Source: Liolophura sinensis
Taxonomy: Eukaryota; Mollusca; Polyplacophora; Chitonida; Chitonidae
Direction: 5' to 3'
NCBI RefSeq assembly: GCF_032854445.1
Contig: NC_088306.1
Span: forward strand, 10,130,193-10,194,192
Length of the DNA: 64,000 nucleotides
Both the position numbers and the translations under genes were made by a program. The notes under the pieces are model-generated. The model was not told the origin of the DNA. It saw only the letters and a list, made by a program, of their open reading frames with translations, and did no database searches. Below, one piece after another: positions 3,856 through 64,000 of this stretch (within the stretch, counting starts at the first letter, position 1; each line of letters begins with the position of its first letter).

Positions 3856-5383
3856 AACTTTGTCAAAAAAGAAACGCAACCCCTGTCCTCGGATATCAAA
3901 AATTCGTTCGAATAAAGTTATTGCTTCCAAACTAAATTTTAGCCAAATGTAATGAAATTATACACGTTTTTAATGAAGATTACCATCCAAACAACTGCCT
4001 TTTCTCTCCTAAGTGTATTTTATTGCTTATGACGTCACAACGCATGGACTGACCCTGTTGACGTCGCACACAGAACCATTCACATGCAAATCATGTCAGT
4101 GGCAGTTATAGTGTGGGGGTGTATAAAAGCCCATGTGCTTTCGTATTTTATTCATTCATTCGTCGACGAAAGGCAGTCGGTAAAATGCCGCGACTGAGTG
4201 CTGCCGAAATATCGCCATTGGTCGTCTTCAAGCCGGAGAAAGTTTTGGTACTATTGCACGACACCTAAATGTTCACAAAACAGCGATATCCCGACTTTGG
4301 AGCCGTTACAGCAACTTTAATTCGACCAACGATCGCCCGAGAAGTGGAAGGCCAAGAATCACGACCCCACTTCAAGATCGGTACATCCGGGTCCTTCACC
4401 TGCGTAATCGGCATGCCCTACCAACCGTGACTGCCACACAAATACCAGGTTTGAGGAGAGTGTCGGCTCAAACGATTAGGAACCGTCTGAAAGAAGCGGG
4501 TTTACGTGCCTGTAGACCAGTTGTTGGACCTGTACTACGCCTCTTACATCGACGCCTACGACTCAGGTGGTGCAACAACGTATGGATATGGACTTTACAA
4601 AACTGGAGGCGCATCTGGTTTTCTGATGAATCCCGTTTTCTTTTGACAGGTCACGACGGAAGACAGCGTGTGTATAGGAGACGTCATGAACGCTTTGCGC
4701 CCATCTGCGTCCGGCAGGTGGACAGATTTGGCGGAGGCAGTGTTATGGTTTGGGGAGCCATCTCGTACAACCAGAAATCAGACTTGGTGATCGTTCCAGG
4801 GAACCTGACAGCCCAACGTTACATCAACCACGTGTTACAGCCTCACCTTCTCCCGATTATTGACCGACAGACACATCTTTTTCAACAGGACAGCGCCAGG
4901 CCTCATACTGCACGTGCAACAATGAGCTTTCTGCAGGATTCCAACGTCAATGTCTTGCCGTGGCCCTCTAAATCACCAGACTTCAACTCTATTGAACACC
5001 TGTGGGATACTCTGGATCGACACGTGCGTAAACTTCAGCCACTGCCACAGACGCTTCAACAGCTCGCCGTTGCGTTACAGGAAGAGTGGAGGGCCATTCC
5101 CCAGGAGAGAATCCGGCGTCTTATCCGTTCTTGTCCAAGGAGATGCCGTGCAGTGATTGCAGCTCGTGGTGGTCATAGGAGATACTGAGGAAGACGCCCC
5201 CTGGTGAGCAACTGGTGTCTGTGAGATGACTTTTGAAAAGACAGTTTTAAACATGACCATCTTGATTATTATTCTGCCAAATTTCTGACTTCTGTCTTCA
5301 ATAAGAAAAAAGTTGTGCCGTCCTAAAACTAAATATTAAAATCTCTAAAATACGGGGGTTGCGTTTCTTTTTTGACAGAGTTT
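3856..5383 (+). mobile_element. Tc1/mariner-superfamily DNA transposon (Tc1-like, DD34E), near complete
   Basis: A 1528-bp element flanked by TA on both sides (3854-3855 and 5384-5385). The terminal inverted repeats, 3856-3886 and 5353-5383, are about 31 bp long and start AACTTTGTCAAAAAAGAAAC on the left. The right end, reverse-complemented, differs at only two positions. One transposase frame fills the inside in the plus direction. Length, TIR size, TA duplication and the transposase type all fit Tc1-like elements. The well-matched ends and the long open frame suggest a fairly recent insertion. Confidence 0.93.
4185..5188 (+). pseudogene. Tc1-like transposase, one N-terminal frameshift
   Basis: The transposase starts MPRLSAAE at 4185. 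After about eight codons the reading frame shifts, and the rest is open from about 4217 to the stop at 5186-5188. The protein order is typical of Tc1: a helix-turn-helix region (GESFGTIARHL...AISRLWSRY), a GRPR-type AT-hook (RPRSGRPRIT), a second HTH region (VSAQTIRNRLKEAGLRA), then the catalytic domain. The catalytic aspartates are in FSDESRF and QQDSARPHTA, and the glutamate in SPDFNSIEHLWD. The spacing between the second Asp and the Glu is 34 residues, so this is DD34E. The frame break looks like the loss of about 4 nt compared with the expected ERYRAIG stretch. All catalytic residues remain. An internal GTG or later Met could only give an N-terminally shortened product. Confidence 0.88.
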
Positions 5384-8712: not shown

Positions 8713-9087
8713 TTTACTGAATAAATTCTCTTTTATTTGGCCGTAGAAAAAGTTGAGAATAAAGAAACAAAATCAGTTTATTCAGGACAAAGTAATTTTC
8801 CCCGACTTAGCGGCCAATGAGACACTAGTATTTCAAATATCAGCTTTTTGGTTGGTTGGAAAGTACTTTGCCCGCGTTAGCAGAATATATATATGTATTT
8901 GTTTTTTTTCACCTTGTTTTTGTCCGACGGATAAAAAAAAAATTATACAATTATGTCCCTTCTGCGGTTCCATAGTTCAGCGCCATTCTCAATTTAAAGA
9001 TTTTTTCACTTATTACTGCGGTCAGATTTGTGGGTGTAGGAAACGGCAGTCCACAGTAACGCACCAACCTTCGTTACGCACTTTACT

Positions 9088-11351: not shown

Positions 11352-14184
11352 CTAGGTCGGCTTTTTGTATTTATCAAACACACCTTCAGCAATGAGCTGC
11401 TGTTTCTTCTTCTCTTTCAATTGACTTAAGAAGTCCTCCATTTCTTTCAGTTCCGGCTGAGGCTGTTGCTTCGCTGCTGTTACCGTAGCAGTAGATATTG
11501 CCGACACTCGCTTGTCGGCACCTTCGCGAGTAAGTTTTCCCGCAGATTTCACTTTCAACTGCCTGGGTATGTACATCATCAACCCTGTGGTTTTAGCAGG
11601 AGCCAAATCCGTAAAAGGCTTCTTCACTTCTGAAAGCGGAGGATTTCTCTTAACTTTGGAGCCTTCAGTCTTCCTTTTTTTGGGTGAGGGTGAAGATCCC
11701 GAACTAGAGCTAGAGTTTGACGACCTTGAAGACGAGTTGGAAGATGAAGGGCGTCTCCGTTTTCTGTCCCGGTTTTGAGAGACAGAAGATCCTCTGTAAT
11801 CACCTGTACGAGACTGATTGCCAGATGACGTTCTATGTTGACTTCGTTTTTCTCGGGAGCCTGATCTATGCCGGTCTCTGGATCTGGATCGCTGTCGGTG
11901 ACTGGATCTAGATCGCCGTAGGTGAATGGAACTCGATCTACGTAGATCTCTGGAACTTGACCTTTGCCGGTGTCTGAAGCCCTTTCTATGCCCATCTCTG
12001 GAACTCGATCTACGTCCATCTCTGGAGCTCGATTTACGCCGGTCTCTGGAGCTCGATCTATGTCGATCTCTGGAGCTTGGCCTTTGGAGATCTCTTGAAG
12101 TCGATTTATGTCGATCTCTGGAACTCGATCTTCTATACTGAGCTCTGGAAGTCGATCTATGTCGATCTCTGGAACTCGACCTTTGCCGATCTCTGGAGCT
12201 ACTTCTATGTCGATCTCTGGAACTCGATCTATGTCGATCTCTGGAGCTCGATCTCTGTCGATCTTTGGAGTTCGATCTATGTCGATCTCTGGAGTTCGAT
12301 CTATGTCGATCTTTGGAGTTCGATCTATGTCCATCTCTGGAGTTCGATCTATGTCGATCTCTGGGGCTCGATTTACAACGATCTCTGGAACTCGATCTTC
12401 TATGCCGAGCTCTGGAAGCCGATCTATGTCGATCTCTGGAACTTGACCTTTGTCGATCTCTGCGGCCCTTTGTATGCCGATCTCTGGGACGCGATCTATA
12501 TCGATCTCTGGAGCTCGATTTACGTCGATCTCTGGAACTCGATCTTCTATCCAGACTTCTGGAAGCAGATCTACATCGATCTATGGAAATCGATCTTTGT
12601 CGACTCCTGGATGCAGCTGTGTCTCGTTTATCTAGACTATTCCGTTCTTTCTTCTTGGAACTATGTTTTCTGGCGCTTTCAACAACATCAGGTAAATTTA
12701 TTTGATAATTCCTTCGATCCGACTCGGGGGCTCTTGGATCCTTGACTCTTCCTGTGCTACCTGACCCTGACTGAGAACGACTTCTGTCATCTCCGTCTCT
12801 CCTAGTATCGTGCTCTAGTGAATGCCTATCCCGTTTCTCCTTGTGGCTATTGTCCGAACCCCTTTCAGGGGATAATTCAGCTGATCCGACATGACTGTAG
12901 TTCTGAGCTATAACTGTCGGACCTCCAGACACAGTCCTTATTGCCTGACCAGAATGACCTTCCTTTGGTTTTGCATAAAACTTATCATTATGAACCTGAA
13001 TTTTAATGTCATCATAGAGCTTGTTTTTACTCAATACCTGCTCAGTCGAGTTGTGGTCTGCTTGGACAGTATCAACTACGCCAGCAGAATTAAGGTCAGA
13101 TTTATCTGAATGGCGCGGGGATGTGTTCCTCTGCATCTTCTTTTCGCCACCTCGAAAGTGTGTGGGCATTTCTTCAGGACTGCCTCGTACTACCAAACCT
13201 CTTGTTTTTCTGCAGATTGGAGAACCAAGCAACGTTTTCTTCTCTGGTGTTCCTGCATGCGCGCTGTCAATCCCAGGTGTGCTACGCCCAGACGGAGTGT
13301 CTCTTAAACGCTTTTGTGTTAATCCTGCTCTTTCTTGTAAATCTGGCGAAAACACCCTAGCATGTGGGTTATGTTTCGTTTCTAAATACTCCATGAATTT
13401 CATACTCTTGCTTTTGTTGTCCTCAGCAGTAGCGGCAATCTGAGATCTTGCACCGGTATCACTGTCTTGGTAGTCCAAACCCTGGGGAGGAGGCGACCGG
13501 TTTCGGGAACTTTCCTTGATGGGTCTGAGATCGGTAGATCTTCGACGGTCGTCTTGTCCATAACCGTCCCAGCGTTTGGAAGCTAGGACTCTTCTTGCCT
13601 CTTCCACACCTCTATCCCCGTCATCTGACTTCCACAGCTGTCTATTCCTCTCTTCAGATCCTGAGAGACGTCTATCGTCATACCTTTCTATTGAACCTCT
13701 GGAATGCCGCCGAACTTCCTTTTCTGTTAAGACTCTTCCATGACGATCCTGACTGCTTTTTTGGCTTTCTTTTGTCTGGAGAGAACTTCGTGTGGAGCGT
13801 CTAGCAGCTTTCCTGGGGCTAGGAGACGTGGATGAATCAGAGGATGATCCGCTGCTAGATGACGATGAAGATGAGGATGATGAGCTGGATGATGATGTTG
13901 ATGATGAGGAAGAAGAAGAAGAAGATGACGACGATGAGTTGCCGTAAAGCTTGCTACTGTCAGGGCTGTTTGGAGACCTGGATCGTCTTCTACTTCCATG
14001 AGAATGTTTTTTGCGATTTCCAGTGTCCCATCTCCGTGAAGGGCTGGTATCAGGCTGTCCCTTACGCTCGCTGGGAGAGACTGATGTCATTCGCTCATAC
14101 TTGGGCTCAGAGATTCTTCTAGAGCGCCCATGGCCTCCTGGAGAACTTTGCCAGTCCCCAGACTTGTGTCGGTCTTTCTTAGAT
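11352..14184 (-). CDS. TTC14: TTC14 last coding exon: RS-rich low-complexity tail
   Basis: Residues 467-1410 are encoded by one 2833-nt exon starting after ...TTGTTTAG at 14184. The content in order is a Lys/Arg/Ser region, a Ser run with few Thr (about residues 550-578), mixed RS segments, a long array of RDRHRSSS-type octads (about 995-1240), a second Ser run, and a short ordered-looking end with [19 protein letters not shown], which resembles the C-terminal helix of other TTC14 proteins. SR-type tails usually carry nuclear-speckle targeting and phosphorylation by SR kinases, an inference here. Other frames across this exon stay open for long stretches only because of the repeat. Confidence 0.88.
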
Positions 14185-17100
14185 CTAAACAAATAAAAAC
14201 GAAAGTAGGCAAAATGAAGTATTATTACCATGATGATGATAATGAATTAAAAGAAAAGAACACATTTATACAACCTACACCTTAAATGAAAGAGGTATAC
14301 TTAAAGTTAAACAAACATCTCAATTTTCTGCCAGCGGTGCTTGTTATTCGAGTAGTTAATAGTTAAACGTTGAAGGCTTAGGACTCTCCTTTAGGCCGCC
14401 ATATTAACAGATACGAACGTATTTAGCTGATACTGGAAACGCATGTTAATCATATGGTCGGAATACAGCCTTTAGCACATTGACGTCACCGTGAATATTT
14501 GAGGGGAGAAAAGAACGGTTTTCATTGGATAAGCCTAAAACATGGTTGGACTTTCAATGTGCCTTGAATCAGTGGATTTTGTAGAAAACGACGATGTTTA
14601 AAACCGTTTTTCTCTCTTACAACAACTTAAAATTCTTAGAATTCCACAATTTGTATAGCTCTTTCATTTAAGGTTGTATAAATGTGTTCCTTTGTTTCAA
14701 AGAAAGGCACACTGTAGTTTCTTAACAACAACAACATGAACTACTATGTATTTATTTCCTTTATGCCTTTGGTCTTTTTACCAAACTGAAGCAATGACCT
14801 GTAACACGGTGGGTTTATGAGGTACCTGTCTTACTTTAATACCTACATATTTCAGCCATACAATAAGCGGGAGCTGGATACAAACAGGCTACCTCAATAC
14901 CTAGTCAAAGGCTAATGGATTAAAGCAGTGTAACTGACTAAGCAAAGGAGAATCTATTCAATGCATTTCAAAATACTCAACTATTTCCAAAAAAGGACTT
15001 AGAACAGCAAATTAATCTTACTGAATATACTGCACCAGTTATGAAATACCCAACAGAATTCATTTAGATTTGACCTTGCCAATGTTGTGTACTGTAATCC
15101 TTGAACCTTTTCGCATGTTTGCACGGTGTTTATTCAAGCATATTCTCAAGTGAAGACTGATACAATTACATTTTTTGAGGAGCCCTGAAATTGGCCAAAT
15201 TAAGCCATATAGTTTGTCTCCGAAATCAACTTAAAAATGTATATTAATTGCTCTTCATGTGTGAAAAGATTGAGGAATTAGGTTACACTACTTTCCATCA
15301 ATCCATTTGGGCAGTCCTAGAAACGTAACTGAAGGCAAATGTGGCATGTAGGGTTGCTTACCCACGTCCTCTCTCCTCCTCCTTTATGAGCCTGAGAAGC
15401 TTATCTTTGGTCTGGCTGAGGGGAAAGTCCTGATGACTACTGGAGCGGGACTGGACATCTTCACAATCAGAGTCGGTGTGGTGGGCAGAGCGGCGAGACA
15501 CCTGTAAATACAAAACACGTGTCATGTCTCTTCACATCCCTAAACATTAACAAGGTGCAAAATAGACTCTCACTAAATATCATTACAACAACTACTGCAA
15601 GGTCAACGTCAGTCGAAACAGTTGAGTGATTATCTTTGCATGTTTCAGTCCTAATTCCGTTCTTAACATATTTGTGTTCAACGTCGTTTTGGGAACTGGT
15701 CTTGCGATCAATGATTTATTTATTTATTTTATTTGATTAGTGTTTTACGCTGTACTCAAGAATAGTTCACGTTCACGATGGCGGCCAGCATTATGGTGGG
15801 TGGAAACCGAGCAGAGCCCAGGGGAAACCCACAACCATTCGCAGGTTGCTGCCAGACCTTCCCACGTACAATTAATGACCTGGAAAGTCCATTTTTTATG
15901 AGGACTGGTACCCGAATGTTTGTTTTGATGCACATTTTGGATTCCAACAAGGCAATGTTGGAAACTATTGTACGCATGTACTGCATATCCTCTTCCTTTT
16001 TTCCATGGCACGAAGCTGAAAACATTCCAGTTGTTTCGACTTCCATTTTCCGAGACAGACAGTGAACCATACGTGTATTTGTAACGACTTCTAATCTTCA
16101 TGAAGATAATTTTAGTCATCCTAAAAATATGCAACTATTAACATTTTACCAACCCATATTTTATGTATGACAGAATATATCAACATACTACACATTTCAT
16201 ATGTAGTGAATCTAGGAACGATTAAATTTGTCAAGAGAAAGCCTGTTCACAGAAGGTCAATTGTCGCTCAACATAAAATCGTTTTTATCATTAAACAGTG
16301 CCAATGAAAGGAAATACTGTTGTAATATCAAGGTAGCAGGTATATATATATGTGTCATTTGTTTTCACTTCTACTTTTAGCGGGGCGTGGGAGCTGGGGT
16401 GATTTCATTCTTTTATGTTGATTAAAGGCATTTTCCCTTTCAAAACAGCAGAGCTCAGCTATTAACAGCTTCTGCCAAACAGTCACATCCCACCACTAGG
16501 TAATCAGTCCAAACTCCTACAACTGAGTGTCAAAAACCAGTCCAGCTGGTGCTAAATGTAAAATGCGACTTGTTCGCATCTTCTCTTCAGAAGGACACTA
16601 GCGCTCACCTGCACAGGCTCTCTGCGCTGACACAGCCTTAGGTAGTGTATGACCTCCGGATCAGATCTATTCAGCTCCAGAGCTCGGTGATAATAGTTCT
16701 CAGCATCGTTGTAACTGCGGCTGTCGTGTAACCTTACACAGAGGAGAGTACAGTTCATCAGCATCACATGCCTCCTTGGCAAAACATTAATCAGCTCAAA
16801 TCAAATCCAATCGAATCAAATCTTTGCTATTACTTCAAATTATTACGTTCCACAACATGTCAATCTCTCCTGTGCACATTTTCCGTTCAAAATCGCCAAC
16901 AAAGCTCCAAAAATTCATAAAGCAGATCACATTATAACTTTTTCAAACTTTTTTATCATTATAAATAGTGCTCATAAAAGGGAAAAATTTGAGCTATTCT
17001 TGGTAAATACCAATTTGATTTGATTATCGAATATGGATTTTTTTTTAAAGTCTCCTTTAATTTATTTATTTATTGATTTGATTGGTGTTTTATGCCGTAC

Positions 17101-20100
17101 TCAAGAATATTTCACTTATAGGACGGCGGCCAGCGTTATGGTGGGAGGAAACTGCGCAGAGCCCGGGGGAAACCCACGACCATCCGCAGGTTGCTAACAG
17201 ACCTTCCCACATACGGCGGGAGAGGACGCCAGCATGAGCTGGATTTGAACTCATAGTGACCGCACAGGTGAGAGGCTCCTGGGTCATTACGCTGTGCTAG
17301 TGCGCTAACCCACTGAGCCACGGAGGCCCCAGGTCTCCTTTAAGAGTTGCCTCACCATGGTCTTAGGGCCATTAACAAAAAAGGATAAGAACTCCCAAAG
17401 AACTCCGACAATAGACAACTTTAGGCGTAAGTTCCTCCAGAGCCCTAGGGATAGACATCTCTAAGACTGACTTCCAGACGAACGACAGGTATGTACATTT
17501 CAAGGCCAAGACTCCATCAAGCCAACACCTTTGTTCTTAAATTAAAATACAGAATTTAAAGTTTTCACAACTTACTCTCTTCCCTTGGCGATAAGTGTTT
17601 CATGAAGGTATTTTCTGGCATTGCTGTGACTTGGGTTGGTTTTAAGTGCTAACTGGAAGTCATCAATAGCCTTACTGTAACTTTCATTATTGGCATATCT
17701 GAAACAAAAAACAAATAGGTTACACTGGAGATTGTTGAAAATATACTGATAACTTACACTATGTCCTGGCAAAATGTTGCATTTATGTGTTGTTGCTCTT
17801 TTCTACAGCATAAACACAGTTATAATTTGCTACAAAACAGACAAACTGACAAACGTGGGGAAAATATAGCTGATTAAGTATTAATGTTCCATGTCATGAA
17901 ATTTCAAACAAAAATTTAGTGAAGATCAAATATTCGCTTTGGATATATCGCACAGATGAGGTTATTTAAGATCACACAGGACAAACACGAGAGACGCAAC
18001 ATTGGAGAATAGTAAAGAAAATAAATATTTCACTGTCTAGCTGTTACTATTCATACACTGTATCAGGCCTGGAAGCACCCAATCCTAATGGGGATAAACA
18101 CACATGCAAACACCTTCACAGGAATAAACAACTTTTCCACCATACTTAGCCAAGACAATTTATAATTTGTGACATAACCCTTGTCCATGACCCCGATACT
18201 CACAGGGCGCCTCTAGCGACCAGGGCCTCCACATTATCCACATCCACCTGGAGGGCTTTATTCAGCAGCTGCATCGCCTCCAACGGCTTCCCCGCTTTGA
18301 AATATGCCACACCCTCAGCAACACTGTAACCATGGCAACAGTGAATGAAATAGTAAAATGTAAATCAGTAAATTTCATTATGAATTGTTTGTTTCAATCA
18401 GCCTCAAAATGTCCTGTAATCTCATGTGAGATCATATGTCTATATGTACCTATATCAAAGCTTTGTTGTCCGCTTCGGGACCGGTAGATCCAGAATCAAT
18501 CCTTGTTCGAGTCACACCTAAGACTTTAAAAGAGGAAGTTGTAACTTCCTCGCTTGGCGTTCAGCATGAAGGGGATAGTGCAACGACTGGTTGACCCGTA
18601 TCAGTATAATGGCTCGGGCGGGGTGGCTTACTTGCCTTCGGTAAGTCGTCTCAGTGATGCAGCACTAAATAAAAGAGCGGTGGAAATCCGTCCTGCAACA
18701 AGGAGGCACATAACACGTGCATGCACCCTAATGATTCCTTCGTCGTCATATGACTGAAAAATTGTTGAGTACGACGTTAAACCCCAAGCACTCACTCACT
18801 CACTCAAAGCTTTGTCCTAAGAGTCATCTGAAGGGTTATACTGATCAGCACACAGATGTCCTATTTTACATTTTATTTAAACTCAGTCATTATAATGAAA
18901 AACTTACAACACAGAGTAAAGCCAGAGCAGCAACGATGATGGTGTGATAACGTGCTAAATAGTCTTAAATAGCCAGTGAAATACGACCTAAATTTACCTC
19001 AGAGTTTTATTCTAACTGTTCCTGCAAATGTTTCACTAGTAGCAAATTACACGTCCCCAAGTATCATGGCTTAAACAGAGTTGGGTAAAAAAAAAATTAA
19101 GACAGTGATGTTCATTGCAATTTATTAGATGCCACAGGTTTAGAATTAGACACACCCAAACACAGTACATGTAGACGAATCTGGTAATGTCAAAAGTTTC
19201 CGATTTCATTTTCCTGTGGTCATGATAGAGGGCCAAGTAGTTGTAAATCTCAGCTAATGTGTACTGAAATTTTGGTCTAACAAATTCTTCAGCAGTTAAG
19301 CTTTTCAACAGAATTACTTACATGTTGCAATGTCTTAGTCTCACCTTTTCATTGCCCACTTAGTTGACTGTGTCTTTCTTAACCCTTCAGCAGTTTCTGA
19401 CGGTGGAATTTCTAACCTGTGAAGAGGAGGAAACTTGGTGTAAAAGATATGAACTAAGTCAAGACAAGAAGCACCGATCTACCCTGGTAATCTTGAGAAG
19501 AAACGTAATGTATTCACACAAAGAAATTGTCCCCAAAAGTACACTTTTACAGGCATATTATCCTCAAACAAACCATAAAACAATCAATAGAGCTCAGAAT
19601 CAGGCAAAATGAGTTTACAACTCAGTCATGGAAGAAATCTGCAGGTAACATATTGTAACTGCAATCCTAAAAATACCAAAACTTGATTAGTTGTACATGT
19701 ATATAAAGCTAGTACATCTAGCTCAAGGTTGTTTTATTTCAAAGCTTTGATTTATTTATTTATTTATTTATCTGATTTGTGTTTTACGCTGTACTCGAGA
19801 ATATTTCACTTATAAGACGGCGGCCAGTATTATGGTGGCATTTATTTATTTATTTGATTGGTGTTTTACGCCGTACTCAAGAATATTTCACTTATACGAC
19901 GACGGACAGCATTATGGTGGGTGGAACCCGGGCACAGCCCGGGGGAAACCCACAACCATCCGCAGGTTGCATTATGGTGGGAGGAAACCAGGCAGAGCCC
20001 GGGGGAAACCTGCGACCATCTACGGGTGCAGCCAGTATTATGGTGGGAGGAAACTGCGCAGAGCCCAGGGAAAACCCACCACCATCTGCAGGTGTGGCCA

Positions 20101-23100
20101 GTATTATGGTGGGAGGAAACTGGGCAGAGCCCGGGAAAACCTGAAACCATCTGCAGGTGCGGCCAGTATTATGGTAGGAGGAAACCAGGCAGAGCCCAGG
20201 GGAAACCCACAACCATGTGCAGGTGCGGCCAGTATTATGGTGGGAGGAAACCAGGCAGAGCCCGGGGGAAACCCACCACCATCTGCAGGTGAGGCCAGCA
20301 TTATGGTGGGAGGAAACCAGGCAGAGCACAGGGGAAACCCACTACCATCTGCAGGTGCGGCCAGTATTATGGTGGGAGGAAACCAGGCAGAGCCCAGGGG
20401 AAACACACAACCATCTGCAGGTGAGGCCAGCATTATGGTGGGGGGAAACCAGGCAGAGCCCGGGCAAAACCCACAACCATCTGCAAGTGCAGCCAGTATT
20501 ATGGTGGGAGGAAACCAGGCAGAGCCCAGGGAAAACCCACGACCATCTGCAAGTGCGGCCAGTATTATGCTGGGAGGAAACCAGGCAGAGACCGGGGGAA
20601 ACACACAACCATCCGCAAGTGCAGCCAGTATTATGGTGGGAGGAAACCAGGCAGAGCCCACGGAAAACCCACGACCATCCGCAAGTGCGGCCAGTATTAT
20701 GGTGGGAGGAAACCAGGCAGAGCACGGGGGAAACCTGCGACCATCTACGGGTGCAGCCAGTATTATGGTGGGAGGAAACTGCGCAGAGCCCAGGGAAAAC
20801 CCACCACCATCTGCAGGTGTGGCCAGTATTATGGTGGGAGGAAACTGGGCAGAGCCTGGGAAAACCTGAAACCGTCTGCAGGTGCGGCCAGTATTATGGT
20901 GGGAGGAAACCAGGCAGAGCCTAGGGGAAACCCACAACCATGTGCAGGTGCGGCCAGTATTATGGTGGGAGGAAACCAGGCAGAGCCCGGGGGAAACCCA
21001 CCACCATCTGCAGGTGCGGCCAGTATTATGGTGGGAGGAAACCAGGCAGAGCACAGGGGAAACCCACTACCATCTGCAGGTGCGGCCAGTATTATGGTGG
21101 GAGGAAACCAGGCAGAGCCCAGGGGAAACACACAACCATCTGCAGGTGAGGCCAGCATTATGGTGGGGGGAAACCAGGCAGAGCCCGGGCAAAACCCACA
21201 ACCATCTGCAAGTGCAGCCAGTATTATGGTGGGAGGAAACCAGGCAGAGCCCAGGGAAAACCCACGACCATCTGCAAGTGCGGCCAGTATTATGCTGGGA
21301 GGAAACCAGGCAGAGACCGGGGGAAACACACAACCATCCGCAAGTGCAGCCAGTATTATGGTGGGAGGAAACCAGGCAGAGCCCATGGAAAACCCACGAC
21401 CATCCGCAAGTGCGGCCAGTATTATGGTGGGAGGAAACCAGGCAGAGCACGGGGGAAACACACAACCATCTGCAGGTGCGGCCAGCATTATGGTGGGAGG
21501 AAACCAGGCAGAGACCGGGGGAAACACACAACCATCCGCAAGTGCGGCCAGCATTATGGTGGGAGGAAACCAGGCAGAGCCCGGGCAAAACCTGCAACCA
21601 TCTGCAAGTGCAGACAGTAATATGGTGGAGGGAAACCAGGCAGAGCCCAGGGAAAACCCGCAACCATCTGCAAGTGCAGCCAGTATTATGGTGGGAGGAA
21701 ACCAGGCAGAGACCGGGGGAAACACACAACCATCTGCAGGTGCGGCCAGCATTATGGTGGGAGGAAACCAGGCATCAAATCTGAAGCACAATACTGACGG
21801 CATGAATACATGATCAAGGGATGATTAAAAATGTTCCAAAGTACGCACATTTAGTGGCAGTTGGAAGGTGAAATTACATGTAGCTTGTGTCTTCAGTGTC
21901 TTCTAGCAGCAGGCCAGTCCCAAAGCTGCCTGACTGTCATATACAAGATACCAGATCTATTGCCTTAACCTAATATATGTACTAAGGTCTGACCAATACT
22001 TGGCCTATTCCCTTATGCTGAGAAACAAGTCAAAAAGTTTCAAGATGACCAATATTAAAGTTTTAAGTATGAGAGGGTTGGGATTGTGGGTCTCTTGCTT
22101 GTGATATGAATGTTCTAACCTCTCACCCACTGCTTTGTGGCTCTATCCAACAGCCAGTCTACATGTATCATGTATGAACGTAAAAAGACCGAAACATTCA
22201 TGGAGTTTTTCATTTTCTATTCTCAAATCATTTTTGTTCTCAAGATTTTGTTTTTGTCCATTTATATTCTGTATCAAATGACTGTTTTTTAAATCCAACT
22301 GGTCAGTGCTTATTGAGATCCTTTGAAAATACAGAGTACATGTAGCTTCTATTATTTATCTATCTCATTGGTGTTTTACACCGTATTCAAGAATATTTCA
22401 TTTATACGTCGGCGCCCAGTATTATGGTGGGAGGAAACTAGGCACAGCCCGGGGGAAACCCAAAACAGTTCCTAAGTTGCTAGGAGACTTTCCCACGTAT
22501 AAGCCCGTGGGAAACCCACGACCACCCGCAGGTTGCTGGTAGACCTTCCCACGTACAGCTGGAGAGGAAGCCAGCATCTGAACTTGAGTTCACAGCGACA
22601 GCACTGGTGAGAGGCTCCTGAGTCACTGTGCCATGATGGCGTGCTGACCATCTTGACCCATAGCTTCTCTTAGGCAGATACAATGTTACCTACATGTAGA
22701 TCTGATCTGAGGGTGTGGCTGTCACAACCGGTGTCATACATTAGTAAGAAAATAGTGAGCCTGAATAGTAATGATTCAAAATGACAACCTTGTTTGAGTC
22801 ATAAAGCCATACATAACTATAATGTAAAGGTATTCAGTATTTATTTTTGTAAACTATACAAAAGCAATTGCCATTTATGGACAATTTACTTGTCCACAGT
22901 ATTCTAGTAATAAAATGTCTGCAACTTAAGTCTTTCAGACATGCACATGCACTGACAAGCACCCTATCTTCTAGGGCCAATAGGAGCAACATGGGGCATG
23001 TGTGAGGTGGGTTGTGCCTTATCTGACTTGTTCTGGGTGATGATGCCCTTACCTGATCAGACTTCTCCTCAATGATGGGGGACGATGGTGATCAGACTCT

Positions 23101-60250: not shown

Positions 60251-60759
60251 ATGCCCCTGTTTAGCAGATCTCAGAAGGGCCCCTTGGAGCTGGTGAAGGC
60301 TCTGAGGGACTCCCTGAATGACTTGGTCAAGGAGCAAGACAAACAGAAGCAGGACAAGGGAGAGAAAAAGGCCAGCAAGGTATGTGCATGTACCAGGGAC
60401 AGCCCTACATAAAGTTTACTTTTAATCAGAGACTTGTGGATGGGCTATACATGAAAATGTCCAAATAGGTGCATTGCTTGTGTACATGGTTTCTACACCA
60501 AAAGGAGTATTTTTTTTTTACCTTATTTATATCCAAAAAATCGCACATTTTAGATTGTGTGTAATAATTTTCGACTTCCTTCCCTTTTGTGCAGGCCTCT
60601 GAAGATGTAACAAAGAACCTGGGTGCTATAAAAAATATGTTGTATGGAACTCAGGAGCAGGACCCCCAGACAGAGTTGGTGGCTCAGCTAGCCCAGGAAA
60701 TGTACAACACAAACATGTTATATCAACTCATACAGAACCTCAATAGGATAGACTTTGAG
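60251..60759 (+). CDS. CAB39: Calcium-binding protein 39 / MO25, first two coding exons (partial gene)
   Basis: Exon 1 60,251-60,379 (43 codons, MPLFSRSQKGPLELVKALRD...) and exon 2 60,595-60,759 (55 codons, ASEDVTKNLGAIKNMLYGTQ... to NLNRIDFE). The leader is probably spliced at TTTGTTTCAG before 60,196. The sequence follows the N-terminus of MO25 proteins closely: MPFPFGKSHKSP-type start, VSKNLVAMKEILYGT, EPQTEAVAQLAQELYN and LIDFE, with the exon 2 border at DFE as expected. MO25 is a helical-repeat scaffold that binds STRAD and activates the kinase LKB1 in the cytoplasm, and it also stimulates some STE20 kinases. The remaining exons (GKKDV onward) must lie beyond the right edge. The last 77 nt of exon 2 plus the donor are the founder unit of the array that follows. 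Confidence 0.93.
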
Positions 60760-63700
60760 GTAAGTGACTCAGCTAGCCCAGGTAAAGTACAACACACAGA
60801 TGTTATATCAACTCATACAGAAACTCAATAGGATAGACTTTGAGGTAAGTGACTCAGCTAGCCCAGGTAAAGTACAACACACAGATGTTATATCAACTCA
60901 TACAGAAACTCAATAGGATAGACTTTGAGGTGAGTGGCTCAGCTATCCCAGGAAATGTACAACACACAGATGTTATATCAACTCATACAGAACCTGAGTC
61001 GGATAGACTTTGAGGTGAGTGACTCAGCTAGCCCAGGTAAAGTACAACACACACATGTTATATCAACTCATACAGAACCTCAGTCGGATAGACTTTGAGG
61101 TAAGTGACTCAGCTAGCCCAGGAAATGTACAACACAAACATGTTATATCAACTCCTACAGAATCTCAGTAGGTTAGACTGTGAGGTAAGTGACTCAGCTA
61201 GCCCAGGTAATGTACAACACACACATGTTATATCAACTCATACAGAAACTCAATAGGATAGACTTTGAGGTAAGTGACTCAGCTACTCCAGGAAATGTAC
61301 AACACAAACATGTTATATCAACTCATACAGAAACTCAATAGGATAGACTGTGAGGTAAGTGACTCAGCTAGCCCAGGTAATGTACAACACACACATGTTA
61401 TATCAACTCATACAGAAACTCAATAGGATAGACTTTGAGGTAAGTGGCTCAGCTAGCCCAGGTAATGTACAACACACACGTTATATCAACTCATACAGAA
61501 CCTCAGTCGGATAGACTTTGAGGTGAGTGACTCAGCTAGCCCAGGAAATGTACAACACAAACATGTTATATCAACTCCTACAGAATCTCAGTAGGTTAGA
61601 CTGTGAGGTAAGTGACTCAGCTATCCCAGGAAATGTACAACACACACGTTATATGAACTCATACAGAACCTCAGTCGGATAGACTTTGAGGTGAGTGACT
61701 CAGCTAGCCCAGGTAAAGTACAACACACACGTTATATCAACTCATACAGAACCTCAGTTCGGATAGACTTTGAGGTAAGTGACTCAGCTATCCCAGGAAA
61801 TGTACAACACACATGCTATATGAACTCATACAGAACCTCAATAGGATAGACTTTGAGATAAGTGACTCAGCTAGCCCAGGTAAAGTACAACACACACGTT
61901 ATATCAACTCATACAGAACCTCAGTCGGATAGACTTTGAGGTGAGTGACTCAGCTAGCCCAGGAAATGTACAACACACACATTATATCAACTCATACAGA
62001 ACCTGAGTCGGATAGACTTTGAGGTAAGTGACTCAGCTAGCCCAGGAAATGTACAACACAAACATGTTATATCAACTCATACAGAACCTCAGTCGGATAG
62101 ACTTTTGAGGTAAGTGACAGCTAGCCCAGGAAATGTACAACACACACTTGTTATATCAACTCATACAGAACCTCAATAGGATAGACTTTGAGGTATGTGA
62201 CTCAGCTAGCCCAGGAAATGTACAACACACACATTATATCAACTCATACAGAACCTCAGTCGGATAGACTTTGAGGTAAGTGACTCAGCTAGCCCAGGAA
62301 ATGTACAACACACACTTGTTATATCAACTCATACAGAACCTCAATAGGATAGACTTTGAGGTATGTGACTCAGCTAGCCCAGGAAATGTACAACACACAC
62401 ATTATATCAACTCATACAGAACCTGAGTCGGATAGACTTTGAGGTAAGTGACTCAGCTAGCCCAGGAAATGTACAACACACACTTGTTATATCAACTCAT
62501 ACAGAACCTCAATAGGATAGACTTTGAGGTAAGTGACTCAGCTAGCCCAGGTAATGTACAACACACACATGTTATATCAACTCATACAGAAACTCAATAG
62601 GATAGACTTTGAGGTAAGTGACTCAGCTACTCCAGGAAATGTACAACACAAACATGTTATATCAACTCATACAGAAACTCAATAGGATAGACTGTGAGGT
62701 AAGTGACTCAGCTAGCCCAGGTAATGTACAACACACACATGTTATATCAACTCATACAGAAACTCAATAGGATAGACTTTGAGGTAAGTGGCTCAGCTAG
62801 CCCAGGTAATGTACAACACACACGTTATATCAACTCATACAGAACCTCAGTCGGATAGACTTTGAGGTGAGTGACTCAGCTAGCCCAGGAAATGTACAAC
62901 ACAAACATGTTATATCAACTCCTACAGAATCTCAGTAGGTTAGACTGTGAGGTAAGTGACTCAGCTATCCCAGGAAATGTACAACACACACGTTATATGA
63001 ACTCATACAGAACCTCAGTCGGATAGACTTTGAGGTGAGTGACTCAGCTAGCCCAGGTAAAGTACAACACACACGTTATATCAACTCATACAGAACCTCA
63101 GTCGGATAGACTTTGAGGTAAGTGACTCAGCTATCCCAGGAAATGTACAACACACATGCTATATGAACTCATACAGAACCTCAATAGGATAGACTTTGAG
63201 ATAAGTGACTCAGCTAGCCCAGGTAAAGTACAACACACACGTTATATCAACTCATACAGAACCTCAGTCGGATAGACTTTGAGGTGAGTGACTCAGCTAG
63301 CCCAGGAAATGTACAACACACACATTATATCAACTCATACAGAACCTGAGTCGGATAGACTTTGAGGTGAGTGACTCAGCTAGCCCAGGAAATGTACAAC
63401 ACAAACATGTTATATCAACTCATACAGAACCTCAGTCGGATAGACTTTGAGGTAAGTGACTCAGCTAGCCCAGGAAATGTACAACACACACTTGTTATAT
63501 CAACTCATACAGAACCTCAATAGGATAGACTTTGAGGTATGTGACTCAGCTAGCCCAGGAAATGTACAACACACACATTATATCAACTCATACAGAACCT
63601 CAGTCGGATAGACTTTGAGGTAAGTGACTCAGCTAGCCCAGGAAATGTACAACACACACTTGTTATATCAACTCATACAGAACCTCAATAGGATAGACTT

Positions 63701-63942
63701 TGAGGTATGTGACTCAGCTAGCCCAGGAAATGTACAACACACACATTATATCAACTCATACAGAACCTGAGTCGGATAGACTTTGAGGTAAGTGACTCAG
63801 CTAGCCCAGGAAATGTACAACACACACTTGTTATATCAACTCATACAGAACCTCAATAGGATAGACTTTGAGGTAAGTGACTCAGCTAGTCCAGGAAATG
63901 TACAACACATGTTATACTCATGCAGAACCTGAGTAGGATAGA
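60683..63942 (+). repeat. 85-bp tandem array of CAB39 exon 2 end plus 5' splice site, about 38 units
   Basis: The first unit is the exon itself: CTCAGCTAGCCCAGGAAATG at 60,683 through GACTTTGAG at 60,759, followed by GTAAGTGA. The junction to the next unit lies at the shared word CTCAGCTAGCC. Early units start at 60,683, 60,768, 60,853, 60,938, 61,023 and 61,108, an exact 85-bp period; later ones are 82-85 bp. Most units end GAG|GTAAGT or GAG|GTGAGT. Four have GTATGT, and two (about 61,853 and 63,201) have GAGATAAG, losing the GT. Variants recur about 1345 bp apart, a higher-order repeat of about 16 units. The array is intronic except for its first unit. Confidence 0.96.
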
Positions 63943-64000
63943 CAACAACCATGATATTTATCGCTTGATTTATGGCGTTTACAGTGCAATTACAATAATT

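Follow-up and report, generated by a model that had tools for sequence, protein, structure and literature searches.

A mirage-type minisatellite with a series of donor sites in CAB39 intron 2 of the chiton Liolophura sinensis

Amphioxus genes contain elements termed mirages, which are minisatellite-like tandem duplications of exon-intron boundaries and have been described in Adh3, TnC and the globin genes BflGb6 and BflGb9 (PMC3087553). Repeat units are 10-72 bp in length in Adh3, 150-160 bp in BflGb6, where two haplotypes carry 6 and 3 units, and 157 bp in BflGb9, where a 3' exon boundary is duplicated (PMC3087553). Mirages show length instability, and the Adh3 data together with RT-PCR of globin transcripts suggest that they leave regular splicing undisturbed (PMC3087553). 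PGBD5 has been compared to mirages and is a further, imperfect case (PMC3902484).

A tandem array of similar design is present in the chiton Liolophura sinensis, in a stretch of 64,000 nucleotides (C12:10130193-10194192) referred to here as the window. The window holds the first two coding exons of CAB39, which encode the N terminus of CAB39/Mo25; the human relative is MO25, the partner of LKB1. Both exons are on the + strand. Exon 1 (60251-60379) is 129 nt long with the donor AAG/GTATGT, and exon 2 (60595-60759) is 165 nt long and matches CAB39/Mo25 in PDB 1upk (E 3.4e-22) and Pfam PF08569 (E 6.8e-21). Five further exons lie downstream on contig C12, up to position 10199395, with exon 3 starting beyond the window at C12:10194739. 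Joined together, exons 1-7 encode an intact protein of 344 amino acids, and each of the six introns is bounded by GT and AG. A search of the genome (609,464,459 bases in 632 contigs) gave six Mo25-domain matches, all of them exons of this gene. The assignment of the exon to CAB39, first made in the initial annotation, is thus borne out by the PDB and Pfam matches and by the gene model.

The array derives from the 3' end of exon 2, its parent sequence being the final 77 nt (60683-60759). Each unit consists of these 77 nt of coding sequence plus 8 nt of intron, GTAAGTGA, arranged head to tail; a direct split of the sequence bears out the initial description of this 85-bp unit. The 8 nt at 60760-60767 (+ strand) are the true 5' splice site of intron 2, which therefore belongs to the repeated unit. 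TRF places the array at 60679-63909, with a period of 85, 38.4 copies and 91% matches, while the direct split gives 38 complete units at 60683-63880, unit 1 being the exon's own end. The array of about 38 copies initially said to follow exon 2 is therefore real, but the complete intronic copies are 37 (units 2-38, 60768-63880, + strand), and 38 is reached only by counting the exon itself. Spacings between the 39 unit anchors are 85 nt in 21 of 38 cases, 83 nt in 15 and 84 nt in two. The last unit, 39 (63881-63944, + strand), is degenerate and truncated, has no donor, is 85% identical to the consensus unit and is followed by other intron sequence. Array and unit 39 (60760-63944) make up approximately 84% of intron 2. 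The 3' splice site of this intron (C12:10194738/9) is approximately 600 bp past the array, and no unit match is found there.

Two simple origins are rejected: chance, by 38 head-to-tail units at 91% matches, and insertion of a dispersed satellite into CAB39, since all 39 unit matches listed from the genome fall in one candidate region, C12:10190875-10194135, in a search that scores best candidates only and skips very common words.

On structure, the chiton array is taken as belonging to the mirage kind. As in amphioxus, its units join the end of an exon to a splice site and the intron next to it, with the copies inside the intron and with unit 1 being the exon; AG/GT splice signals are found in many units (36 of 38 complete units in the chiton); the gene is intact; and the interior is homogenised while the edge is divergent, as seen in a block copy with a single substitution (below) and in unit 39. 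The differences are that the host is a mollusc and not a cephalochordate, that there are 38 units as against the 6 and 3 of the BflGb6 haplotypes, and that the 85-bp unit is longer than those of Adh3 and shorter than those of BflGb6 and BflGb9. In addition, splicing was followed by RT-PCR in amphioxus, whereas in the chiton it is predicted from the DNA and the annotated protein. The singularity implied by the initial annotation is lessened by these precedents (PMC3087553, PMC3902484). No mollusc mirage and no account of the CAB39 locus was found among the papers listed in the literature searches, judged by titles and the starts of abstracts and with most subscription papers outside the search; one candidate, PMC12783039, concerns repeats within an earthworm intron. 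What appears new is the occurrence of a mirage in a mollusc, outside the cephalochordates, and a copy number well above that of the amphioxus globin genes; the kind of structure itself was already known from amphioxus.

Boundary repeats have also been treated in a study of human internal tandem repeats in segmental duplications by De Grassi and Ciccarelli (2009). The human units are about 30 bp and are repeated four times on average (PMC2812944). In these human repeats the copy number of a minisatellite varies across an exon-intron boundary and extra splice sites are supplied, as they are in the chiton; some of the human repeats led to alternative transcripts or new introns (PMC2812944), whereas the chiton array made no new intron. 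In the Rogers model of intron gain, a tandem duplication bearing AGGT likewise copies a splice site (cited in PMC3087553). Intron gain of this type has both splice sites in the duplicated copies. In the chiton the 3' splice site is outside the array, which is therefore contained in an intron that it did not itself create.

The donor 9-mers of the 38 complete units are of four types: 23 are GAGGTAAGT, which includes the true site, nine are GAGGTGAGT, four are GAGGTATGT and two are GAGATAAGT, the last having no GT (positions 61858 and 63201). Thus GT is kept in 35 of the 37 intronic copies, and 22 of the 37 have the exact 9-mer of the true donor. The initial claim of dozens of near-identical donors in a like context stands for these 35 copies but not for the two without GT. 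Scored with a human donor table, the true donor reaches 7.59, and none of the 35 intronic array donors falls below 4.76, the score of the weakest donor type in the array. By the same table, elsewhere in intron 2 only one site, AAAGTGAGT, past the array, exceeds the weakest array donor, with a score of 5.00; no site in the remaining five introns of CAB39 (4,131 bp) reaches it. A conserved gene thus has 36 GT donors in a row, derived from the end of one exon and with near-equal exonic context.

Use of a later donor has the same predicted outcome wherever in the array it occurs. A TAG is met in frame in unit 2 at 60829-60831 (+ strand), 13 nt before donor 2 and therefore upstream of every later donor. 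All 37 later donor positions read to a stop after residue 121, as against 344 residues for donor 1, and the aberrant tail is VSDSASPGKVQHTDVISTHTETQ. This upholds the initial conclusion that only the first donor gives a normal CAB39. It had also been pointed out that 85 is not a multiple of three, so that added units change the frame; the arithmetic is correct but the point is moot because unit 2 already holds a stop. An early-stop mRNA with exons 3-7 downstream is an expected target of nonsense-mediated decay. The predicted 121-amino acid product has no match in a protein database that carries the normal L. sinensis protein only via NCBI and UniRef, a weak test in that such products are rarely recorded.

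The next question is which donor is used. The closest experimental systems are the minigenes of Carranza 2022 and of Reed and Maniatis 1986, where equal donors also compete for one 3' splice site, although these are engineered donor pairs in HeLa cells or in vitro and the chiton has a natural set of 36 (PMC9225289). In human data with near-equal donors and a downstream intron of more than 250 nt, the upstream donor is favoured, an effect that is stronger where the upstream intron is short; in HeLa cells, splicing of five exon-defined minigenes carrying a pair of identical donors went exclusively to the upstream one (PMC9225289). On the other hand, a human survey without an equal-strength filter has the downstream donor preferred in approximately 60% of events and ahead in the majority of every architecture class, and the in vitro rule of Reed and Maniatis (1986), as described in the same paper, favours the most downstream donor (PMC9225289).

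In CAB39, exon 2 is preceded by an intron of 215 nt and followed by one of 3,787 nt. The 3' splice site of exon 2 has a high pyrimidine content (0.88 of positions -20 to -4), and exon length is 165 nt via donor 1 but at least 250 nt via any other donor. The first donor should therefore win by exon definition: the spliceosome would define exon 2 across the exon, with the pyrimidine-rich 3' splice site pairing with the nearest donor to give an exon smaller than with any decoy. The intronic copies, judging from the architecture and the human-cell minigenes, would have no strong 3' splice site of their own, and rare use of a later donor would lead to an early-stop mRNA and to its decay. The gene probably tolerates the array because exon 2 is defined across the exon. 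The NCBI entry 'protein Mo25-like [Liolophura sinensis]' is 100% identical to the 344-amino acid product of the first donor, although an annotated normal protein may reflect the choice of the gene predictor. It should be pointed out that the human rule comes from two donors and is applied here to 36, and that the 215-nt upstream intron falls short of the 250-nt line.

How the array grew is partly visible in its sequence. Units 23-38 (62537-63880) are a copy of units 7-22 (61193-62536), each block being 1344 bp on the + strand; alignment of the two halves shows one substitution and four gap columns in 1346 aligned columns of one assembly. Heterozygosity in the Liolophura chiton genome is 1.2% (PMC11068029); the species of that assembly, first given as L. 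japonica, was subsequently changed by its authors to L. sinensis (PMC12441733). Block divergence is far below this figure, which points either to very recent growth from 22 to 38 units or to an assembly error. Mean identity among intronic units 2-22 is 90.8%, and the exon 2 end is on average 93.6% identical to the 37 intronic units. The exon is thus closer to the intronic units than units 2-22 are to each other, which fits an exon that is the parent and is kept by selection. Immediately upstream of the repeated CTCAGC there is GTGG in the exon, and at the array junctions there is GTGA in 35 of 38 cases and GTGG in three; this short similarity would suit slippage. The array probably arose when an 85-bp segment straddling the exon 2/intron 2 boundary was duplicated in tandem, and probably expanded within the intron through unequal exchange or slippage, with a very recent duplication of 16 units as part of this growth.

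Constraint within the array and the genomic setting were also analysed. In units 1-22, 3 of the 9 donor columns vary, as do 21 of the 76 other columns (Fisher p 0.71), and variable exon-derived columns in the same units are spread over codon positions 1, 2 and 3 as 8, 7 and 5. Preferential retention of donors or codons is not apparent, in a test that is weak because the units share a history. Twenty evenly spaced 10-kb loci of contig C12 (L029-L048) contain 23 minisatellite arrays with a period of at least 20 and at least five copies, in 200 kb, which amounts to 6.9% of bases and approximately 115 arrays per Mb. None of 29 other arrays, these 23 and six elsewhere in the window, has a donor of array strength in its unit. 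A chaperonin-family gene checked for a tandem array has none (one gene, eight listed exon matches). Genome-wide, three evenly spaced copies of the donor 8-mer AGGTAAGT, with gaps of 70-100, were found in 979 matches, and control 8-mers of the same composition in 480 (TGAATGGA), 1199 (AGATGTGA) and 877 (AGTGTAGA), these figures being match counts with several per array. The 979 matches are within the control range, and therefore donor-bearing arrays exist elsewhere but show no special enrichment. Among the 100 of the 979 matches listed, all are on contig C1 and form 19 arrays by eye.

Taken together, these data make it highly probable that the array is a neutral, recently expanded, boundary-spanning minisatellite of the mirage type in which donor 1 wins by exon definition; most likely the array has no selected function. 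The initial annotation had offered either a strong preference for the first donor or a built-in brake on CAB39 level. The former is favoured, given the annotated normal protein, the 215- and 3,787-nt introns and the human and HeLa donor data, and no support was found for the latter. As a brake, decoy donors would capture a fraction of transcripts, these would meet the stop in unit 2 and be degraded, and array length would set the level of CAB39. Such a role could draw on the 35 intronic donors scoring at least 4.76 by the human table, in a gene where the rest of intron 2 has one such site and the other introns have none, and on the same stop being reached from all 37 later donors. It appears unlikely, however, since donor columns are no more conserved than the others, the genome shows no enrichment of donor-bearing arrays, donor 1 is the one expected under exon definition, and the 121-amino acid product lacks a database match, the last being a weak argument as noted above. 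A related possibility is that array length acts as a heritable and variable dial, with a copy-number-dependent share of transcripts being diverted to nonsense-mediated decay, possibly when exon definition is weakened in a given tissue or condition; this is quite unlikely.

The near identity of the two 1344-bp halves can mark a local assembly error, and the true locus might then have one or few copies. This is very improbable, as units 2-22 differ by 9% on average, which assembly stutter would not yield, and as the HiFi reads, at a mean of 8,347 bp and 14x, are longer than the 3.2-kb array (PMC11068029). Whether there are 22 or 38 units is less certain than that the array exists. The units might also supply in-frame microexons of 24 nt, each composed of ACAG followed by an open segment ending in GAG and a donor, so that CAB39 would gain octapeptides resembling NLNRIDFE. 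In 35 of the 37 intronic units the segment between ACAG and the donor indeed measures 24 nt and has no stop in the parent frame (it is 25 nt in the other two), the 35 predicted peptides being NLSRIDFE (16), NLNRIDFE (8), KLNRIDFE (6), NLSRLDCE (3) and KLNRIDCE (2), and the pyrimidine fraction of 0.59 at 30 of 41 ACAG sites is near that of the weaker CAB39 acceptors (0.53-0.65). Yet these acceptors fall short of the ones in introns 1 and 2 (0.88 and 0.82), no octapeptide insert is present in the annotated protein, and variation is spread about evenly over the codon positions. An exon of 24 nt is also hard to define, and microexons are hardly to be expected here.

With a neutral mirage as the preferred reading, the array is probably harmless, and the locus is of value as a natural test of how cells choose splice sites. 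CAB39 offers a natural series of donors where published minigenes have two identical ones, and the question of exon-side versus intron-side proximity could be read from RNA deposited for L. sinensis.

Other repeats occur in and near the gene. A second minisatellite was found by TRF in intron 5 of CAB39, which separates coding exons 5 and 6 (L007:7010-7708; C12:10197010-10197708); it has sub-periods of 35, 57 and 92 bp and ends 22 bp before exon 6. At 19903-21774 the window has a 66-bp array of 28.5 copies with the motif GGCCAGTATTATGGTGGGAGGAAACC, and by eye, stretches resembling this array are found singly in CAB39 introns (L007 near 5160-5290 and 8810-8940). The window also contains two long open reading frames. 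One of 334 amino acids (4184-5188, + strand) resembles by eye a Tc1/mariner-type transposase. The other, of 964 amino acids (11352-14246, - strand), is rich in SR/RS dipeptides, resembles by eye an SR-type splicing-related protein, and includes a 24-bp minisatellite (11927-12611) that contributes eight residues per unit.
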